This document shows, piece by piece, positions 13,181 to 21,785 of a DNA stretch of 47,078 bases. The translations under genes and the position numbers were made by a program. The stretch's first letter is position 1; the number at the start of each line of letters is the position of its first letter. The DNA comes from Acidimicrobiia bacterium (lineage in GTDB: Bacteria > Actinomycetota > Acidimicrobiia > Acidimicrobiales > CATQHL01): assembly GCA_021296415.1 (NCBI GenBank), contig JAGWAL010000010.1:1-47078 (forward strand). The letters are read 5' to 3'. The notes under the pieces were generated by a model. It ran no database searches. It was not told where the DNA came from and worked only from the letters and a program-made list of their open reading frames with translations.

Positions 13181-14506
13181 TCAACGGCCGGCCGCGGCGG
13201 CGCGTTCGCCGACGCTGGAGGCGCGGAGTTCCTCGGCGTACGTGTGGAGGTAGTTCCGGCCGGTCGTGGTCAGCATGTTGCGGGCAAGTTCGTCGAGGGC
13301 ATCGGCCTTCAGCGCCCTCACCTCGTCGGAGCGCGAATCGAGCGCCAGGAGCAGGTCGCACAGCTCGGCGGCCCACTGCGCCTCGCCGGCGGCGAGCGCA
13401 GCCGCGGCCTCGCCGAACAGCACGTCGGCGCCTCCGGCGAGATCGGCGATCCGCCGGGCACGGTCGCCGGGGTGAAGGGGGTTCAGGGTTGCCGGGTTAC
13501 CGTCGAACCAGCCCAGCACGCCGCTGAAGATGGCCCGCACCGACCAGGCCACGTTGCCGTAGTACTCCCGCAGCAGCGGGTGGTCGGCCAGATCGTCGGG
13601 CAGCCGCACCTCGTGCGCCAACTCGTCGGGCGTCTTCCCGGCGTTGATCCCCTCGATGGTGGCGTTGTAGACACCCCACAGCCCGCGGCTGTAGACCTCC
13701 AGCGCCTCGTCCACCTCGGCGGCACCGCTGATCGGCAGCGAGTGGCCCATCACGAGGTGGTGAGGGTCCAGGGCGCGGATGCGATCGATCGCCTCGCACC
13801 AGCCGCGCACGTCCCGGTACTGGGTACCCCGGATCGCATACAGGTTCGGCCACGACCGGTACATGTTGTCGCCGCAGAAGGCGACCCTGTCCTGCTCGAA
13901 CCAGACGAGCACCTGATCGTCCGTCTCGCCGGGGTTGTGGGACACCGCCAGGGTCACACCGCCGAGCCGGATCGTGGCGTCGGTCTCGAACCGCTTCCTC
14001 GGACGGATGCGGGGTTCGGGCACGACGTTCACCGGGGTGTTCCCGGACACGACCGAGGGCGCAACACCGGTGTTGATCTTCTTTTGGGGCGGGAGCAGGT
14101 TGCCGAACTGCCGCAGAGACCGCTGCAGAGCGATATCGGCGCCGTTGCGGGCGAGGAAACGGCCTTCGGTGCCGAACGGCTTGATCGCCCAGATCTCGAT
14201 CGCCGGGTTCTCATCGGTGAATGCCGTCGCCCCATGAGTGTGGTCCAGGTGCCCGTGCGTGTAGACGAGCCCGAGGATCGGCAGGTCCGTGTGGCGCCGC
14301 AACTCGGCGATCGCCTCGGCCGACGTGCCCGGCGAGCCGCCGGCATCCACGGCCACGACGCCGCTGTCGCCGACCACGAAGGAGAACGTCGACACCCCGT
14401 AGCCGGCAGCCACGAAAACCCGGTTTGTCAGCCGGACGAACCGGCGTCCGAGTGACGGATCCAGGGAGCGAAGTTCCCTGGTCGCCGCGGTCTCGGACCC
14501 GACCAT
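13181..14506 (-). CDS. Alkylsulfatase-like MBL hydrolase, copy B
   Basis: Paralogue of the downstream gene, 441 residues, with a normal-looking end. Zinc motif HGHLDH at 84-89 (H84, H86, D88, H89), then HNPGETDDQ, FCGDNMYRSWPN, MGHSLPISG, and the dimerisation-type segment with LREYYGNVAWSVRAIF and LGWFDGNPATLNPLHP. It lacks the SCP2-like C-terminal domain of SdsA1/BDS1. Secondary or linear alkylsulfatase activity is therefore a family-based inference, and a lactonase or other ester substrate is possible. First gene of a two-gene unit. The ATG at 14506 has a TACCGT -10-like hexamer 7 nt upstream and no Shine-Dalgarno. Confidence 0.85.
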   Translation of the reverse strand: MVGSETAATRELRSLDPSLGRRFVRLTNRVFVAAGYGVSTFSFVVGDSGVVAVDAGGSPGTSAEAIAELRRHTDLPILGLVYTHGHLDHTHGATAFTDENPAIEIWAIKPFGTEGRFLARNGADIALQRSLRQFGNLLPPQKKINTGVAPSVVSGNTPVNVVPEPRIRPRKRFETDATIRLGGVTLAVSHNPGETDDQVLVWFEQDRVAFCGDNMYRSWPNLYAIRGTQYRDVRGWCEAIDRIRALDPHHLVMGHSLPISGAAEVDEALEVYSRGLWGVYNATIEGINAGKTPDELAHEVRLPDDLADHPLLREYYGNVAWSVRAIFSGVLGWFDGNPATLNPLHPGDRARRIADLAGGADVLFGEAAAALAAGEAQWAAELCDLLLALDSRSDEVRALKADALDELARNMLTTTGRNYLHTYAEELRASSVGERAAAAGR

Positions 14507-21434: not shown

Positions 21435-21785
21435 ATGGCCGACATCCTCGTGTACCACAACCCCGGTTGAGGCAGTTCCCGCACCACTCTCGACCTGCTG
21501 CGGGAGCGAGGCGTCGAGTTCGACGTCGTTCAGTACCTGAAAAATCCCCTCCACCGCTCCGAGTTGGCGTCACTCCTGGCGATCCTCGAGCACGACCCGT
21601 CCGACCTGGTGCGCCGCGACAAGCACTTCGGCGACCTGGGACTCAGCGAGGAGGACGTGGCCGGCGCCGAGCAGGTCGCCGACCTGCTTGCCGCGCACCC
21701 ACGGCTCATGCAGCGACCCGTCGTCGTGCGCGGCGGGCGGGCCGTCATCAGCCGGCCGCCGAAGACGGTTCTCGAGTTGCTCTGA
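21435..21785 (+). CDS. ArsC-family arsenate reductase with in-frame TGA at catalytic position 12 (probable selenoprotein)
   Basis: From ATG 21435 the frame reads MADILVYHNPG, then TGA (21468-21470), then GSSRTTLDLLRERG and on to a natural stop at 21785: 116 residues, normal for the glutaredoxin-linked ArsC family. The E. coli/R773 ArsC active site is HNPACGTSR with the nucleophile Cys12. Here the TGA is codon 12 in HNPG-U-GSSR, an exact match. The three substrate arginines of the family (R60, R94, R107 in R773) have counterparts in LVRRDKHF, MQRPVVV and ISRPPKTVLELL. Conservation after the TGA shows the full frame is under selection. A fitting SECIS-like hairpin follows. I infer selenocysteine insertion; Cys-to-stop mutation or base-call error are the alternatives. 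selA, selB, selC and selD are not in the window. The physiological substrate could be arsenate or another oxidised thiol target (the family includes Spx/YffB-like proteins). Confidence 0.8.
21468..21470 (+). other. In-frame TGA codon, predicted selenocysteine (Sec12)
   Basis: TGA replaces the codon of the catalytic Cys in the HNPxCGxSR motif of the ArsC-like gene, with an uninterrupted conserved frame on both sides. Confidence 0.75.
21489..21518 (+). promoter_or_regulatory. Candidate bacterial SECIS hairpin
   Basis: CTCGAC (21489-21494) pairs with GTCGAG (21513-21518). Inside, CT pairs with AG and GCT pairs with AGC, with small bulges, closing a GCGGG loop (21500-21504). The loop begins with G and starts 29 nt after the TGA. 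This fits the known loose consensus for bacterial SECIS elements (a G in the first two loop positions, about 16-37 nt from UGA). Folded by eye only. Confidence 0.55.

Follow-up and report, generated by a model that had tools for sequence, protein, structure and literature searches.

The window analysed here, a stretch of 47,078 nucleotides (nt) from contig JAGWAL010000010.1 of an Acidimicrobiia bacterium (assembly GCA_021296415.1), carries an arsC gene that in all likelihood encodes a selenoprotein. With a probability that we put at roughly 0.9, its product is a short ArsC of the R773 type that receives selenocysteine (Sec) at the UGA of codon 12. The gene and the codon lie as follows.

21435-21785, forward strand: arsC, R773-type arsenate reductase-like gene of 116 residues with Sec at residue 12; the gene also ends in TGA (21783-21785).
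21468-21470, forward strand: predicted Sec codon TGA, codon 12, at the catalytic Cys position; the sole in-frame TGA inside the ArsC frame.

Translated with TGA as Sec (U), positions 21435-21785 read MADILVYHNPGUGSSRTTLDLL...RPPKTVLELL. When Cys was substituted at codon 12, this protein scored 47.8 against Pfam ArsC PF03960 (cut-off 24) and 106.3 bits against NCBIfam arsC TIGR00014 (cut-off 106.05, over positions 5-116 of 117), whereas the Spx models, searched in the same way, scored it under their cut-offs. A phmmer alignment ran unbroken through the active-site region to the solved ArsC proteins 2mu0, 1jzw and 1i9d, the last two of which are R773-type chains. A direct count found R60, R94 and R107 at their R773 ArsC numbers. 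The initial annotation, which placed the TGA exactly at Cys12 and described the frame behind it as ArsC-like, with three active-site arginines and a normal stop, was thus correct in both respects. Moreover, a Ser follows the Sec three residues later (UGSS, residues 12-15), forming a UxxS motif. The protein shares its family, the HNPxC active site and the numbers of the three arginines with the plasmid R773 ArsC (1i9d, 1j9b, 1jzw); it differs from it by Sec in place of Cys12 and by a shorter C-terminus (116 versus 141 residues). The coding signal flanking the codon-12 TGA (0.43/0.50) was the strongest of all in-frame TGAs on both strands of the window, the runner-up reaching 0.32. An Rfam scan of the window returned no family at gathering score, and a tRNA scan of the same stretch found none.

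The TGA is conserved. The gene is present in eight of the nine genomes of the window's family, its own included, and all eight have TGA at codon 12. A scan of named genomes yielded 26 relatives, belonging to Acidimicrobiia or to bins labelled Gammaproteobacteria or Pseudomonadales, and 24 of them carried the TGA. Across the class, 142 of 395 Acidimicrobiia genomes gave a match. Codon 12 was read in 141 genes (class matches plus earlier loci) and was TGA in 88, TGC in 46, TGT in 7 and never anything else; these are the genes that were fetched, picked from the match list, so the Sec/Cys ratio is no estimate of frequency. Relatives of both kinds, which the initial annotation had proposed to look for, are thus at hand: among 136 distinct homologues from Acidimicrobiia and their relatives, 83 have TGA and 53 TGC or TGT, with no other codon. 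In a sample of the phylum, 25 of 396 genomes matched at E 1e-20 or better, 12 of them from outside the class, one of these with TGA. Hence the gene, first thought notable for an actinobacterial lineage, is no isolated oddity, Sec-ArsC being common in Acidimicrobiia. Downstream of the TGA, the ratio of nonsynonymous to synonymous substitution rates (dN/dS) was 0.22-0.38 against six congeners (own NG86 script), and this part of the gene is under purifying selection. The recurrence of the TGA and the selection behind it uphold the earlier argument that the codon is not a chance loss.

Profile searches of the same genome detected selA (369 bits), selB (271 bits) and selD (354 bits), all above cut-off. 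The selD gene is itself of the Sec type, with its own in-frame TGA. A frameshift in SelA was considered and rejected: the alignment breaks at the junction with the upstream gene, and neither the SelA nor the SelB frame is interrupted. A tRNA-Sec gene with anticodon TCA lies on the contig that carries selA and selB, and ARAGORN also calls tRNA-Sec in seven relatives. All four genes were also found in relatives, with gaps in incomplete bins. The machinery that was to be expected if the codon is read as Sec is thus complete in the genome, save for a 10-nt gap in the tRNA-Sec gene that is discussed below.

Arsenate reduction is the established activity of the R773 ArsC family and of its active-site residues. 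SelB and Sec-tRNA-Sec would decode UGA at codon 12 as Sec, which would then replace the catalytic Cys of HNPxC(U)GxSR and act as nucleophile on an oxyanion substrate, most likely arsenate, bound by R60, R94 and R107. An external thiol partner would regenerate the enzyme. MshA-like matches were seen but stayed under the curated cut-off, so mycothiol as this partner is a guess. The presence of Sec in the protein is itself predicted from the sequence.

Several observations weigh against this picture, and the genomic context is one of them. ACR3 was not found in the nine family genomes, nor was ArsB above cut-off, a weak match in one of them staying below it (the search did not extend to ArsM, ArsP, ArsJ or ArsK). 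No ars gene occurs among the examined neighbours of arsC, which differ between lineages; a DUF459/SGNH protein and an oligopeptide ATP-binding cassette transporter are found there. Because of these missing ars genes, arsenate can be put forward as the substrate only tentatively. Thus, of the Sec-containing arsenate reductase claimed at first, the Sec-ArsC gene is supported, whereas the reduction of arsenate is a suggestion. It is possible, if somewhat doubtful, that the UGA is indeed read as Sec and yet the protein, instead of reducing arsenate, serves as a general thiol/selenol oxidoreductase with an ArsC/Spx fold. Such a protein would fit the ACR3 and ArsB results and the neighbouring genes; however, the arsC equivalog cut-off is passed, if only just, those of the Spx models are not reached, the three arginines are retained and the ars gene search was confined to part of the known genes. 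A study of UBA5794, an order in this class that may or may not include the window, reports arsC for 72% of its genomes and arsM for 58% (PMC12008989).

The signal that would direct Sec insertion is also unusual. Downstream of the UGA, the mRNA is predicted to form two hairpins, the more distant of which resembles a selenocysteine insertion sequence (SECIS).

21510-21527, forward strand: distal SECIS-like hairpin GGCGUCG-AGUU-CGACGUC, at TGA+43..+60, with the AGUU apical loop at 21517-21520.
21475-21507, forward strand: proximal mRNA hairpin, at TGA+8..+40, its sequence and exact fold varying between subclades.

We analysed these elements in group A, which comprises 42 distinct Sec genes including that of the window; its members are related and are not independent trials. 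One fold is conserved across the group, the hairpin at TGA+43..+60, and its loop is AGUU in 41 of the 42 genes. The consensus energy was -8.1, compared with -0.55 when synonymous codons were permuted within each gene, a null that leaves protein and codon usage unchanged, and none of 100 permutations came as low. Synonymous identity was 0.89 in the hairpin codons versus 0.57 elsewhere, and several pairs had undergone compensatory changes on both sides (C-G to G-C, G-C to A-U, C-G to U-A). The 53 Cys genes have no conserved fold at this site. Since four of the 53 also reach 7/7 pairs, the pair count is insufficient alone, and loop identity and the synonymous nulls were added to it. All together, these results show that the distal hairpin is under selection.

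The distal hairpin agrees with the stem and loop criteria of bSECISearch, having a 7-bp stem and a 4-nt apical loop, AGUU, with G at position 2, thus within the first two loop positions, followed by U. The objection lies in its distance: the UGA is 46 nt from the apical loop, usually with the second hairpin in between, whereas the published model, as restated in PMC13188914, allows 16-37 nt, with a loop of 3-9 nt and a stem of 4-16 bp. This comparison is with the model and does not extend to the SECIS figure of the Sargasso Sea study; the authors of the model acknowledge that it does not fit every element (PMC13188914). Our literature searches, limited to selected passages, turned up no bacterial SECIS described with so long a spacing. 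Other Sec genes have shorter distances. In selD of the same genomes, a conserved loop stands 33 nt after the UGA, a canonical spacing; in all nine family genomes (L059-L067), selD combines its in-frame TGA with a conserved hairpin whose GUC/GUU triloop is at TGA+37. In the arsC genes of group B, the hairpins lie at TGA+20..+37 (loop GGUC in 24/24) and at TGA+15..+31 (loop CGUGC or CGUGA).

Gene by gene in group A, the region ahead of the distal hairpin is more structured than its codons predict, which suggests that it may act as a folded spacer. The AGUU-loop hairpin, 43-60 nt from the UGA, would be the most likely SelB recognition element, and the second hairpin, which most group A genes have in between, would probably reduce the distance that separates this loop from the decoding site. 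For the full proposal we see about even odds: a long-spaced, two-hairpin SECIS in group A Sec-ArsC, with the distal hairpin as the SelB site and the variable intermediate one as a folded spacer toward the decoding centre, canonical spacing in selD (same genomes) and group B arsC (other genomes), and more than one origin of Sec-ArsC in Acidimicrobiia, with different SECIS architectures. The proximal hairpin might instead be the real SECIS, leaving another role for the distal one. Its spacing is nearer the canonical one and it is stronger than synonymous-codon permutations in three subclades; the loop and fold conserved throughout group A are those of the distal hairpin, and we consider this alternative unlikely. 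Separately, a single consensus proximal SECIS for all of group A was sought and discarded, TGA+4..+42 having subclade-specific folds only.

The last point against the selenoprotein reading is the tRNA-Sec gene.

L016:1501-1587 (G000:C45, about 14327-14413): tRNA-Sec gene, 10 nt short in the D-arm.

These 10 nt are present in 7/7 compared relatives, the remainder being nearly identical, and this gene is the only copy over the family cut-off in the genome. The organism might thus belong to a lineage that makes Sec-ArsC and have itself recently lost Sec decoding, with arsC and selD about to decay. We find this improbable: selA, selB and selD score above cut-off, SelA and SelB have uninterrupted frames and arsC is undamaged, while a 10-nt assembly slip would be a simpler cause of the gap. 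A pseudogene or sequencing error, that is, a chance nonsense TGA in a Cys-ArsC gene, is scarcely credible even for an assembly that is 77.5% complete, in 63 contigs and with this gap, given the same TGA in all family copies and in 83 distinct homologues, the constraint downstream of it and the selection on the hairpin.

We therefore return to Sec-ArsC as a selenoprotein and to its spread. The Sec-ArsC genes of Acidimicrobiia form two blocks in the tree. A quick tree implies at least five changes of the Sec/Cys label, at least two of them forced by starred branches; with its few alignment columns and many open forks, it does not fix how many origins there were or separate gain from loss. Group A Sec-ArsC genes with the same hairpin and spacing are also found in bins labelled Gammaproteobacteria or Pseudomonadales (L083, L084, L087, L088, L090), which suggests a transfer of Sec-ArsC between phyla. 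A binning error may lie behind these genes, although at two of the Gammaproteobacteria-labelled loci the neighbours are a TonB receptor or SecF. Some Cys forms (L193, L116, L126) have Sec forms as their neighbours in the tree; two of these, L116 and L126, retain 7/7 group A hairpin pairs, with CGGT replacing the AGTT loop, as if derived from a Sec ancestor. Two genomes carry both a group A and a group B Sec-ArsC gene, on opposite strands and within about 8 kb (L127, G195:C55) or 2.5 kb (L129, G177:C30) of each other.

The enzyme itself is not new, since Sec-ArsC with a UxxS motif is a known selenoprotein family. The arsenate reductase UxxS selenoprotein was described with 14 sequences from the Sargasso Sea in 2005 (PMC1088965) and with 77 sequences, as ArsC 1, from the Global Ocean Sampling in 2008 (PMC2398784), in line with what the initial annotation said of marine metagenomes, and it is catalogued under COG1393/pfam03960 (PMC9312934). 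These proteins and that of the window have in common the family, Sec at the catalytic Cys and the UxxS motif. The earlier ones came from marine metagenome reads, whereas here the hosts, the Sec machinery and the phylogenetic spread (Acidimicrobiia and some Gammaproteobacteria-labelled bins) are shown. A literature search for Sec in Acidimicrobiia returned nothing on the subject, judged by titles and the beginnings of abstracts. What is new is that Sec-ArsC is widespread in Acidimicrobiia, together with the Sec machinery, and that its SECIS-like hairpin has a distinct geometry, 46 nt from the UGA and usually behind a second hairpin. Gene callers for which TGA can only mean termination will overlook this enzyme or cut it short throughout a class of actinobacteria that are marine or sponge-associated. 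The tandem hairpins raise the question of how far SelB can reach, and if the SECIS does break the 16-37 nt rule, selenoprotein searches that rely on SECIS detection would not pick up genes of this kind.
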